From NCBI RefSeq assembly GCF_015350975.1, contig NZ_JADKRX010000005.1, forward strand, positions 1-64,000: DNA of 64,000 nt, written 5' to 3'. Made by a program: the position numbers and the translations under genes. Shown piece by piece: positions 21,179 through 23,949 of this stretch. The notes below the pieces were generated by a model. That model made no database searches. It was given only the letters and a program-made list of their open reading frames with translations, and was not told the origin of the DNA. This DNA is from Curtobacterium sp. VKM Ac-1395 (GTDB lineage: Bacteria > Actinomycetota > Actinomycetes > Actinomycetales > Microbacteriaceae). Position 1 is the first letter of the stretch, and each line of letters begins with the position of its first letter.

Positions 21179-21817
21179 TCAGTCGTCCGTGTCGACCGTG
21201 TTCGTCACCGTCGCACCGGAACCGGCGTCGATGCGGATGCTGTGCTTCGTGCCGGCGTCGTCGCGCACGTCGCCCTCCCAGACGACCTTCCCGAGGTGGT
21301 CGTCGAGCCCGAGCTCGGTGACCGTCCCGGCGACGACGTCCTGGAGCTTCCCGGCGGCGTCGGCGACGTCGAGCTCCGCAGCGGCCACGAAGCGCTCGTT
21401 CTCCCGCACGTCGTCGGCGTCGGAGTCGTCCACGGTCGGGGTGCCCTCGACGGCGGACCCGGCGGCGTTCGTGTGCACCTCGTGCTCCTGGCCGTCCGAC
21501 GTCACGACGAGGACCTGCCAGGTGGTGCCGCCGCGCTCCTGCTCGACGCCGACGACGGTGGGGGCGCCGGAGTCGACGGCGTCACGGGCGGTCGCAGCGG
21601 CGGACACCAGGGCGTCGTTCGACGCGGCGGCCGAGGTGGCGGCGCCGCTGGTCGAGCCGGCGACCGCGCCCGAGGACTGCGCGGTACCGGTGCCGGCAGC
21701 GGTGTCGTCGTCGTCGCGGTCGTCGCTCGCGCAGCCGGTCACGACGAGGGCCCCGGCGAGGAGCACGGAGGCGGAGAGGGCGATGCGGCGGGTGCGGGTC
21801 ATGTCGGTGATGTCCAT
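21179..21817 (-). CDS. PepSY-like lipoprotein linked to a two-component system
   Basis: 212 residues. N-terminal lipoprotein signal: basic TRTRR, hydrophobic core, lipobox VTGC with the acylated cysteine at 29, then an acidic, Ser/Ala/Gly-rich linker. The remainder (about 75-212) looks like two PepSY-type repeats, each an alpha/beta unit ending in a DGxEHEVxxNA or DDAGTKHSIRIDA strand. Such domains are usually regulators or inhibitors at the membrane surface. It lies 91 bases beyond the histidine kinase gene, on the same strand but with its own promoter region, which contains CTGAAGC-N4-CTGAAGC (21842-21859) at the same distance from the start as in front of the response regulator. Presumably the target gene of that system. 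Confidence 0.8.
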   Translation of the reverse strand: MDITDMTRTRRIALSASVLLAGALVVTGCASDDRDDDDTAAGTGTAQSSGAVAGSTSGAATSAAASNDALVSAAATARDAVDSGAPTVVGVEQERGGTTWQVLVVTSDGQEHEVHTNAAGSAVEGTPTVDDSDADDVRENERFVAAAELDVADAAGKLQDVVAGTVTELGLDDHLGKVVWEGDVRDDAGTKHSIRIDAGSGATVTNTVDTDD

Positions 21818-21841
21818 GGGCACCACCCTCGGGGTCAGGTG

Positions 21842-21859
21842 CTGAAGCAGGCCTGAAGC
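21842..21859 (-). promoter_or_regulatory. Direct-repeat box upstream of the PepSY lipoprotein gene
   Basis: Two CTGAAGC heptamers (plus-strand spelling; GCTTCAG toward the gene) repeat with an 11-base period, 25 bases from the start codon at 21817. GAGGGT at 21825-21830, eleven bases nearer the gene, is either a weak -10 or a ribosome site. The layout is identical to that at 23932-23949. Confidence 0.65.
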
Positions 21860-21908
21860 CGTCTGGACAGCCGCCCGGTCAGTCGCAGGGACAGCCGTGT
21901 CACCCCGG

Positions 21909-23237
21909 TCAGCCGCCGAGCGGCAGTCGCACCACGAACCGCGCGCCCCCGAGCGGCGACGTCACGACCTCGACGGACCCGCCGTGCGCCCGCACCGCGT
22001 CACGCACGATGGCCAGCCCGAGGCCCGACCCGCCGGCGTCGCGGCTGCGGGACTCGTCGAGGCGGACGAAGCGGTCGAACACCCGCTCGCGCTCGGACTC
22101 GGGCACGCCGCTGCCGTCGTCGTCGACGGTCAGCTCCGCCGCTCCCCCGACCTCGCGCACGGCGACGGCGATCCGCTCGCGCGCGTGCCGGCAGGCGTTG
22201 TCCACGAGGTTCCGGACGACCCGGCTGAGCACCCGGTCGTCGCCGAGCACCCGGGCGGCACTGATCCCCGAGCCGTCGACGGTGCAGACGCCAGCGCCCC
22301 GGGTCCGCGACACCTCGGCCAGCGCCAGGTCGTCGAGGTCCACCGCACGCCGCTCCCCGATCCCGCGCTCGTCGAGCCGGGAGAGCTCGAGCAGCCCGTC
22401 GACGAGGCCGGCGAGGCGGTCGTTCTCCGCGAGGACGACCTCGGTCAGCTCGTCGACGTCGATCCGGTCGGGATGGGCCCTGGCGACGGAGGCGTGCTGC
22501 CGCACCGACGCGATCGGCGACCGCAGCTCGTGCGACGCGTCGGCGACGAACCGCCGCTGCGCCACCGCGGCCCGCTCGAGCCGGTCGAGCATGTCGTTCA
22601 TGGTGTCCGCCAGCCGGGCGACCTCGTCCCCGGTCTCCGGCACCGCGACCCGCACGCCGTGCGACGCCGCGCGGACCGTGGCGACCTCGCGGCGGATCCG
22701 CTCGACGGGCCGGAGCGACCGGCCGACGACGATCCACGTCCCGATGCCCATCAGCGTCACGAGGAGCGGGACACCGATCGCGAGCAGGGTCACCACCGCG
22801 GTCGTCGCCGTGTCGGCGGCGTCGAGCGACGCACCGTAGACGATGGTCGCCTCGGACCCGCCGGGCAGGTCGACGTCGTCGGCGACGAGCAGCCACCGCT
22901 CCCCGTCGAGCGTGACCCGCGACTCGTCCGCCGTCGGGAGCGCCGGCGGGTCGGCATCGTCACCGTGTGCGAGGACGCGGCCGCCGTCACCGACGACCTG
23001 CACGAGGACCTCGTCGTAGCCGTCCACCGCCGAGGCGCCGTCGGCCTCGACCCGCGCGGCGGCCTGCTCGAGACCGCTCTCGGCACCGGCACGCACGCCG
23101 TCGACGAGCACGAGCCGCAGCACGGTGACGAACGCCACGGACCCGATGACCAGGGCCCCCAGCACCACGAGCACCGCGGCGAGGGTCGTCCGCGCCCGGA
23201 GGCTCTGCGGGCGGTGGACCCGCCCCCGCTCAGGCAC
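21909..23237 (-). CDS. Sensor histidine kinase (OmpR-type partner)
   Basis: 442 residues. One helix at about 18-40, an extracytoplasmic sensor segment of some 110 residues, a second helix near 155-175, HAMP, then HisKA with the phospho-histidine in ADASHELRSPIASV and HATPase with DDDGSGVPESE and GGSGLGLAIV. The GTG start overlaps the last eight bases of the response-regulator gene, so the pair is co-translated. Transmembrane topology and partner suggest sensing of an envelope or metal signal; the ligand is not evident. The longer open frame upstream is inside the regulator gene and was not used. Confidence 0.9.
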   Translation of the reverse strand: MPERGRVHRPQSLRARTTLAAVLVVLGALVIGSVAFVTVLRLVLVDGVRAGAESGLEQAAARVEADGASAVDGYDEVLVQVVGDGGRVLAHGDDADPPALPTADESRVTLDGERWLLVADDVDLPGGSEATIVYGASLDAADTATTAVVTLLAIGVPLLVTLMGIGTWIVVGRSLRPVERIRREVATVRAASHGVRVAVPETGDEVARLADTMNDMLDRLERAAVAQRRFVADASHELRSPIASVRQHASVARAHPDRIDVDELTEVVLAENDRLAGLVDGLLELSRLDERGIGERRAVDLDDLALAEVSRTRGAGVCTVDGSGISAARVLGDDRVLSRVVRNLVDNACRHARERIAVAVREVGGAAELTVDDDGSGVPESERERVFDRFVRLDESRSRDAGGSGLGLAIVRDAVRAHGGSVEVVTSPLGGARFVVRLPLGG

Positions 23238-23907
23238 CGTCGTCCGCCAGCCGGTAGCCGGCACCCCGCACCGTCTCGATCGTGGCGCGTCCGAACGGCC
23301 GGTCGACCTTGCGACGGAGGTGTCCGACGTAGACCTCCACGATGTTCGGGTCACCGTCGAAGTCGACGTCCCACACGTTCTCGATCACCTCGCGCTTCGA
23401 GCAGACCTGCCCGGCCCGGCGGACGAGGAACTCCAGCACCGCGAACTCGCGGCTCGTCAGGTCGAGGGGCGTGTCACCGCGGGCAGCCGTCCGCGCTGCC
23501 GGGTCGACGCGCAGGTCCCCCACGGTCAGGACGGCGGGCCGCTCCCGCGCACCACGGCGCACCAGGGCGCGGAGACGGGCGACGAGCACCGGGTGCGAGA
23601 ACGGCTTCGTCACGTAGTCGTCGGCGCCGGCGTCGAGCGCCTCGACCTGGTCCCACTCGCCGTCCTTCGCCGTGAGCATGAGCACCGGCGTCCAGTTGCC
23701 CTCGGCCCGCAGCTGCCCGCAGACTGCCCAGCCGCTCAGGCCCGGCATCATCAGGTCGAGCACGACGGCGTCGTAGTGGAACTCGCGCGCGTGCCACAGG
23801 CCGTCGATGCCGTCGTGGGCGACGTCGACCGCCCAGCCCTCGGCTTCGAGCCCGCGGCGCACACCGTCGGCGAGTCGGACCTCGTCATCGACCACCAGGA
23901 CACGCAT
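23230..23907 (-). CDS. OmpR/PhoB-family response regulator
   Basis: 225 residues. Receiver domain (1 to about 115) with the acidic pair VVDDE, the phospho-acceptor D51 in VVLDLMMPGLSG, the TAKDG switch threonine and the KPFS lysine; winged-helix DNA-binding domain (about 128-222) ending VRGAGYRLADDG. Two ATGs are possible. The second (23907) is chosen because GACAAT lies seven bases upstream (leaderless pattern) and because the direct-repeat box is then 25 bases away, exactly as in front of the lipoprotein gene. Likely autoregulated through that box. Confidence 0.92.
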   Translation of the reverse strand: MRVLVVDDEVRLADGVRRGLEAEGWAVDVAHDGIDGLWHAREFHYDAVVLDLMMPGLSGWAVCGQLRAEGNWTPVLMLTAKDGEWDQVEALDAGADDYVTKPFSHPVLVARLRALVRRGARERPAVLTVGDLRVDPAARTAARGDTPLDLTSREFAVLEFLVRRAGQVCSKREVIENVWDVDFDGDPNIVEVYVGHLRRKVDRPFGRATIETVRGAGYRLADDGA

Positions 23908-23914
23908 GGCCGCC

Positions 23915-23949
23915 ATTGTCCTCGGGCCGCGCTGAAGCGGGCCTGAAGC
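23915..23949 (-). promoter_or_regulatory. Predicted autoregulated promoter of the response-regulator operon
   Basis: Heptamers CTGAAGC at 23932-23938 and 23943-23949 (11-base period) flank the -35 position. GACAAT at 23915-23920 is the -10, eleven bases nearer the gene and seven bases before the ATG. Tandem heptamers about 11 bases upstream of the -10 are the standard binding layout for OmpR/PhoP-type regulators. Confidence 0.65.

Follow-up and report, generated by a model that had tools for sequence, protein, structure and literature searches.

The question raised by this locus of Curtobacterium sp. VKM Ac-1395 is what controls its two-component operon and the lipoprotein gene behind it, and whether both answer to the same protein. 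The window, that is the whole 64,000-nucleotide stretch of DNA analysed here (contig NZ_JADKRX010000005.1, positions 1 to 64,000), carries on its minus strand the genes for an OmpR-family response regulator, a sensor histidine kinase and a PepSY lipoprotein. Our study indicates that a tandem repeat, TTCAG-N6-TTCAG, found before the first and the last of these genes is very probably the operator of the regulator encoded at 23230-23907, which would use it to activate both its own operon and the lipoprotein gene. The features concerned are as follows.

23932..23949, minus strand: putative operator before the regulator gene, GCTTCAGGCCCGCTTCAG, core TTCAG-N6-TTCAG (exact heptamer pair; orthologous loci).
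21842..21859, minus strand: putative operator before the lipoprotein gene, GCTTCAGGCCTGCTTCAG (exact heptamer pair; orthologous loci).
23915..23920, minus strand: GACAAT, predicted -10 hexamer of the regulator gene, eleven bases after the box and seven before the ATG (sequence; conserved A and T in the logo).
21825..21830, minus strand: GAGGGT, weak -10-like hexamer of the lipoprotein gene, at the same distance from its box (sequence; conserved A and T in the logo).
21863..21867, minus strand: TCCAG, degenerate third half-site of the lipoprotein gene, 10 bp above the first TTCAG of its box (sequence).
23230..23907, minus strand: gene for an OmpR-family response regulator of the UipR type, 225 aa (Pfam Response_reg, 1.1e-26; Trans_reg_C, 1.2e-24).
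21909..23237, minus strand: sensor histidine kinase gene, 442 aa (Pfam HAMP, HisKA and HATPase_c; translation).
21179..21817, minus strand: PepSY lipoprotein gene, 212 aa, with a lipobox ending in Cys29 (translation; Pfam PepSY, 2.1e-7).

The initial annotation of this DNA had described a box of two GCTTCAG heptamers, separated by four bases, at equal distances before the two genes. Both pairs are exact on the minus strand at the positions given, the lower end of each box stands 25 positions from the A of the ATG (23932-23907 and 21842-21817), and before the regulator gene GACAAT occupies positions 12-17 after the box (23920-23915) with eleven bases between, all as had been described. The repeats, about 10-11 bp apart and above a -10, have the form of an OmpR/PhoB-type tandem operator, and the regulator possesses both the receiver domain and the Trans_reg_C winged helix of that type (Pfam). 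Its start was placed at 23907, not 23916, as orthologues begin at the same residue. The kinase gene, for which a GTG start is predicted, overlaps the end of the regulator gene, and the lipoprotein gene follows 91 bp on. The closest relatives of the regulator among the named loci introduced below were from Curtobacterium, the top one being 96% identical.

Across the 3,916,099 bases of the genome the TTCAG-N6-TTCAG core was found three times and its reversed control not at all; a genome scan for the full heptamer pair likewise returned three exact copies, two of them the boxes of the window and the third at another two-component locus. A search of the window allowing up to 3 mismatches gave 6 matches against 3.79 expected, which is chance level, and loose matching was dropped as evidence, with 2 mismatches yielding 18 sites in the genome against 69 in the reversed control. 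Genome-wide evidence was limited to exact cores, since looser matches lay at chance level or below the reversed control.

The strongest evidence came from orthologous promoters, on the conservation of which the initial annotation had staked its proposal. A search with the regulator provided 80 named loci, including Curtobacterium, Microbacterium, Agromyces, Nocardioides, Actinoplanes and Nesterenkonia, which were partly found via the peptide DPNIVEVY, a route that favours Asn. Across several actinobacterial families the ten-base core had one mismatch at most before 79/80 orthologous regulator genes (exact in 74) and before 72/75 neighbouring PepSY genes (exact in 68). A PepSY gene could be identified at 75 of the 80 loci, and 15 of the 72 boxed ones were without an automatically assigned start codon; the three promoters under 9/10 were L153 (7), L161 (7) and L177 (8). 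Scored over the heptamers, 61/80 regulator promoters reached at least 12/14 and six scored 10 or lower, whilst the best scores in two coding-region control stretches per locus never rose above 10/14. Redundancy-weighted logos resolved two TTCAG pentamers followed, eleven bases later, by a -10 with a conserved A and T. The conserved unit is thus the pentamer TTCAG, twice and 11 bp apart; the leading GC of the heptamers is only weakly conserved, and above the regulator boxes the information content is close to nil over 20 bases. From box to start codon the distance was 22-24 nt in 64/80 regulator promoters, which fits transcripts that would often be leaderless, their first base being the A of the ATG, and with such a start the box spans about -41 to -24, where the -35 element would be. 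The OmpR-type layout is well supported, as is the place of the PepSY lipoprotein gene among the targets of this regulon; autoregulation is supported by the box before the regulator gene.

Furthermore, the exact heptamer pair was present in 74/398 genomes of the family, at 123 sites compared to 18 for the reversed control, and the remaining 324 genomes were counted irrespective of whether they possess the regulator. In 37 genomes two sites occurred on one strand less than 6 kb apart, at a spacing of 2.0-2.7 kb in 34 of them, typically with one site before the regulator and the other after the kinase. A script classified 121 of the 123 sites together (the L001 site was read separately and the G171 site was left out) as 56 PepSY promoters, 48 regulator promoters, 3 promoters of a paralogous regulator type, termed RR2 and described below, and 14 others. 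Among these 14, eight lay at RR2-type loci facing the neighbouring gene, one stood before a regulator (L080) and one at a contig end (L097); exact boxes at L079, L084, L093 and L115 face neither a recognized regulator nor a PepSY gene. Around four PepSY genes with an exact box, the 6.1 kb examined contained no orthologue of the regulator; two of the genomes, G135 and G072, have their other exact site before a regulator, 12.6 and 32.6 kb off. This distribution indicates that the box belongs to the PepSY gene and not to the neighbourhood.

The PepSY promoters were also seen to be richer in half-sites. A third TTCAG (at least 4/5 bases) was present ten bases above the box in 57/72 PepSY promoters compared to 5/80 regulator promoters, and an exact inverted copy, CTGAA, eleven bases above the third repeat in 48/72 compared to 0/79; the inverted half-site is absent from the lipoprotein promoter of the window, as read from its sequence. 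The inverted half-site partly coincides with the TGA stop codon of the kinase gene, the box lying 18 nt after the stop in 26 loci. The stop codon was rejected as an explanation of CTGAA, as loci such as L132, L133, L140, L189 and L196 keep it though their stop lies elsewhere. We infer that the PepSY gene is generally a more responsive target than the regulator promoter; for BqsR of Pseudomonas aeruginosa, extra upstream pentamers are reported to add to promoter output (PMC4682146, in the part of that report available).

Under the proposed mechanism, two regulator subunits would bind head to tail on the two pentamers of a box that takes the place of the -35 element, and the bound regulator would recruit RNA polymerase to the -10 eleven bases on. 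The regulator-kinase operon would thereby be switched on, as positive autoregulation, and so would the PepSY lipoprotein gene that follows, from a promoter of its own. The encoded lipoprotein would lie outside the membrane, next to the kinase, where it would probably tune the kinase or buffer its ligand, perhaps a metal. Both direct binding of the boxes by the regulator and activation, rather than repression, are suggested by the sequences compared here.

A link between this particular regulator and the box was sought in regulators whose recognition helix has changed. Among the 80 named loci, L161 (Frondihabitans sp. PhB188) was the sole boxless locus and the sole one with a DPSIVEVY regulator, Ser replacing Asn, and GCTTAGGCT was common to both of its promoters. 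When 396 family genomes were scanned at this helix residue for Ser, Thr, Arg, Cys or Trp codons only, three DPSIVEVY genomes were found, one of them with the L161 regulator. TTAGG-N6-TTAAG replaces TTCAG-N6-TTCAG at the PepSY promoter in all three, 23 nt from the ATG, and one of the three (G246) has an additional, ordinary regulator copy with an exact TTCAG box (L081). The three Ser-helix regulators share several residues of the DNA-binding domain that are rare in 80 other compared sequences, including, in the recognition helix, Ser188 (0/80 others) and Ala195 (1/80 others). A quick tree joined L161 to L215 (a starred pairing) and nested the two next to Frondihabitans sucicola, a species whose regulator promoter has retained TTCAG-N6-TTCAG. 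This joint change of box and helix remains, at the level of sequence, the best available sign that the regulator reads this box. In genome G329 (L213 and L216), the receiver part of a Ser-helix regulator reads as frame-shifted, through either a mutation or an error of assembly. A further locus, L239 of family f10, belongs to the class-wide sample described next and has the helix DSNIVEVYIAHLRAK with GCTTAAGCCAGCATTAAC upstream; this is perhaps a second move to TTAAG, though its distance to the start codon is unusual and the resemblance could be chance.

The range of the box was examined in a class-wide sample of 69 regulator loci, read among the matches listed. At least 9/10 core bases were present in 23/69, and presence fell with identity to the window regulator, from 20/32 at 65% or above to 3/22 at 60-65% and 0/15 at 50-60%; a PepSY gene was seen in 3/69 loci (2 boxed), many of the stretches being too short to tell. 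Of the 103 box-bearing rows in the quick tree, 98 fall within a single clade of 102 rows (support 88, not starred). Eight sister regulators (L240, L241, L244, L245, L249, L252, L255 and L256) have NVVEVYVGYLRRK helices and, by eye, CTCAG-type repeats upstream, which are perhaps the operator of that sister subfamily. In more distant regulators with NVVEVYVGY helices, CTCAG-like repeats often take the place of the box (by eye, uncounted).

Several observations weigh against the assignment of the box to this regulator as an activator. The lipoprotein gene of the window has a poor -10, and a regulator 73% identical to that of the window (L223) had no box in the 200 bases examined. The joint change is confined to one lineage and, on the sequences compared, amounts to one evolutionary event; in genus g34 inspection by eye showed no box in front of the regulator, with no sign of autoregulation there, and one g34 Ser-helix regulator reads as frame-shifted. 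The PepSY promoters of F. sucicola are themselves altered, to TTCAG-N6-TTAAG at L155 and to a match of only 7/10 at L153, and might represent an intermediate state. In the class-wide sample, L253 and L257 (66% and 64% identical) carry DPSIVEVY in an otherwise different helix and have TTCAG-N6-TTGAG and TTCAG-N6-ATTAG upstream, respectively, so that Ser does not fix the box. BasR of Escherichia coli, the box of which is of the TTAA type, has Asn at the aligned residue (in an alignment read without its out-of-frame L215 row). A one-residue recognition code is not claimed, given BasR with Asn and L253 and L257 with Ser and TTCAG-like boxes. Finally, a paralogous locus carries the same box, which means that the box alone does not name its regulator, a point considered further below.

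Turning to what the lipoprotein does, its structural model, with a pLDDT of 82.7, combines two alpha-beta stretches with an N-terminus that is disordered. Two PepSY-like domains are predicted, and the Pfam PepSY match covers the C-terminal one only. Two solved folds matched below an E-value of 0.001, namely 4exr, a putative lipoprotein of Clostridium difficile (the best, TM 0.42/0.54), and 2gu3 (YpmB), both of which we take to be PepSY-type. The initial annotation had suggested the lipoprotein as a possible feedback inhibitor of the kinase, and feedback is plausible by analogy, because DbfQ, a PepSY protein encoded beside a kinase in Vibrio cholerae, binds the sensor domain of that kinase and shifts it towards phosphatase activity (PMC12714742, in the part of that report available). 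The main rival to feedback is that the lipoprotein is an effector, such as an extracellular metal sink of the kind proposed for UipA, and not part of the sensing circuit. We regard this as quite possible, though falling short of an even chance, and both roles may hold. The orthologous locus of Microbacterium oleivorans encodes a PepSY protein that matches UipA (PDB 7ath, E 1.9e-26). According to the part consulted of a review of uranium resistance (PMC8963506), UipA is uranyl-binding and strongly upregulated by uranium, and participation of UipRS in sensing and resistance is still to be demonstrated. The behaviour of DbfQ argues in the other direction. The window lipoprotein had no phmmer match to UipA, which was also absent from the fold matches listed, and it matched the M. 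oleivorans protein weakly (E 8e-5, in a single comparison); on these comparisons it is too diverged for a direct match to UipA.

The second alternative concerns the third exact box of the genome, at the paralogous locus, the features of which are as follows.

C12:82578-82595 of the same genome (L001 1501-1518): third genomic box, an exact match, facing the gene of a Pro/Gly-rich membrane-anchored protein.
C12:81856-82503 of the same genome: RR2, the paralogous regulator gene, divergent from the gene of the Pro/Gly-rich protein.

It is conceivable, though we consider it unlikely, that the box is read mainly, or also, by RR2 and that the two systems form one cross-regulated set. The third box adjoins RR2 and faces the predicted membrane-anchored protein, and RR2 keeps the Asn of the recognition helix. 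In genus g17, 4/7 genomes listed in the family scan have an RR2-type locus with the box, which faces both ways in three of them, and these four are without an orthologue of the window regulator, the best match being 48%, a level also reached by its OmpR paralogues; RR2-type proteins therefore probably read the same box. The same arrangement recurs in 4/9 other genomes listed for the genus of the window (L046-L049), and the two systems may overlap in the window genome itself. However, the window genome has no exact box facing RR2, RR2 is only 43% identical to the window regulator, and the box tracks the window-type regulator, as 98 of the 102 rows of the clade described above are boxed and most of them lie outside this genus. 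Two side observations were made at these loci. Before RR2, at about 1482-1500 of L001 on the minus strand, CCAGGTG-N4-CCAGGTG faces the regulator and is partly kept in the related loci printed, and in L056, L058 and L059 of genus g17 the intergenic region that separates the RR2-type regulator from a small secreted protein contains several TTCAG pairs, in both directions.

Repression from these sites, in place of activation, appears improbable. Polymerase could also be blocked by a box that ends some 24 bases above the start point, and whether CutR of Streptomyces activates or represses is said typically to correlate with where it binds relative to that point (PMC12802291, in the part available). 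However, the dbfQRS promoter behaves as positively autoregulated (PMC12714742), and BqsR, the pentamers of which also repeat at 11 bp, acts as an activator with the furthest downstream of them overlapping the -35 (PMC4682146), as far as the available parts of these reports describe. The pentamers of the window likewise stand where the -35 would be, eleven bases above the -10. We retain activation by the window regulator as the preferred reading, this placement being the usual position of activators in the OmpR family. That the identity of the two boxes is due to chance or to plain shared ancestry of neighbouring DNA has a negligible probability: the window has no more loose matches than chance would give and the orthologous loci are related by descent, but the bases above the regulator box have diverged where the pentamers have not, only three exact cores exist in 3.9 Mb, and this reading is contradicted by the conservation of ortholog promoters, by the logos and by the four PepSY genes that keep the box without a regulator in the fetched stretch.

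On a more speculative and rather doubtful reading, taken up below with the operator of BqsR, PepSY promoters with up to four half-sites (one of them inverted), arrangements rarely or never found at regulator promoters, would describe a conserved, graded feedback circuit in which the surface partner of the sensor has the stronger operator. Our study also supplies a natural regulator and operator variant pair for recognition tests, and a warning in the paralogous regulator locus that carries the same box. The kind of system is known and not itself surprising; the operator makes a little-studied circuit testable. Among the literature matches listed, we recognized no description of a TTCAG operator, and the original UipA paper (Gallois et al. 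2021) may discuss the promoter.

In comparison with known systems, the box was matched by neither of two other actinobacterial two-component systems, the binding motifs of which differ. MprAB of Corynebacterium glutamicum is similar in its suggested positive autoregulation, but MprA has a loose 10-bp motif, TKTTAAGAAM, with no TTCAG tandem (PMC12113857, in the part available); CutRS of Streptomyces is linked to secreted-protein stress, but has the motif TAWATAAA, and no site was found at its own promoter in the available part of the report (PMC12802291). A heavy-metal CopR-type assignment of the regulator (NCBIfam TIGR01387) was also rejected, at 230.3 bits against a curated cut-off of 279.2. 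The PepSY protein from L069 matched PDB 2kgy and 2lra, a solved 'possible exported protein', presumably the mycobacterial Rv0603 beside the TcrA system; if that identification is correct, the Rv0603 locus may be a relative.

DbfQRS of V. cholerae is closer in organization, as a PepSY gene stands beside a regulator-kinase pair and the locus is autoregulated, and the window has a PepSY gene within four genes of its kinase and regulator, as in DbfQRS-like modules (PMC12714742). In contrast, dbfQ precedes the pair and is a predicted member of its operon, whereas the PepSY gene of the window comes after the kinase and has an operator copy to itself, and binding of the kinase is shown for DbfQ and would be a prediction by analogy for the window lipoprotein; these comparisons hold for the part of the report available. 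BqsRS of P. aeruginosa is the closest in operator form, with an activator, a pentamer repeat with a 6-bp spacer and the last pentamer over the -35 (PMC4682146), and the neighbouring PepSY proteins BqsP and BqsQ have been proposed as regulators of BqsRS (PMC4282423), both from partial accounts. The box of BqsR is TTAAG-N6-TTAAG, which differs from that of the window by one base per pentamer at the same spacing; the TTAGG-N6-TTAAG of the Ser-helix lineage resembles it in motif and spacing. It is tempting, if rather doubtful, to suppose that actinobacterial and proteobacterial PepSY-linked OmpR-type systems share a TT(A/C)AG-N6-TT(A/C)AG on the -35, the middle base of which would be switched by changes in the recognition helix, and that one lineage moved from TTCAG towards the BqsR-like TTAAG with Asn188Ser and Gly195Ala. 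This supposition is weakened because L253 and L257 have Ser without a TTAAG box.

The nearest counterpart is the Microbacterium uipRS-uipA locus, to which, judged by sequence, the locus of the window corresponds, since the M. oleivorans protein is related to UipA. In both, a gene whose PepSY product is extracytoplasmic follows the regulator and kinase genes. The two differ in the anchor, UipA being described as a single-pass membrane protein and the window protein having a lipobox with Cys29. Uranyl and iron binding further characterizes the UipA system and would be a prediction for the window protein. In M. oleivorans NBRC 103075 (L129), the regulator is 81% identical to that of the window and the box stands at both promoters. 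Taken together, this provides a predicted operator for the UipRS family, along with the promoters that it should control.

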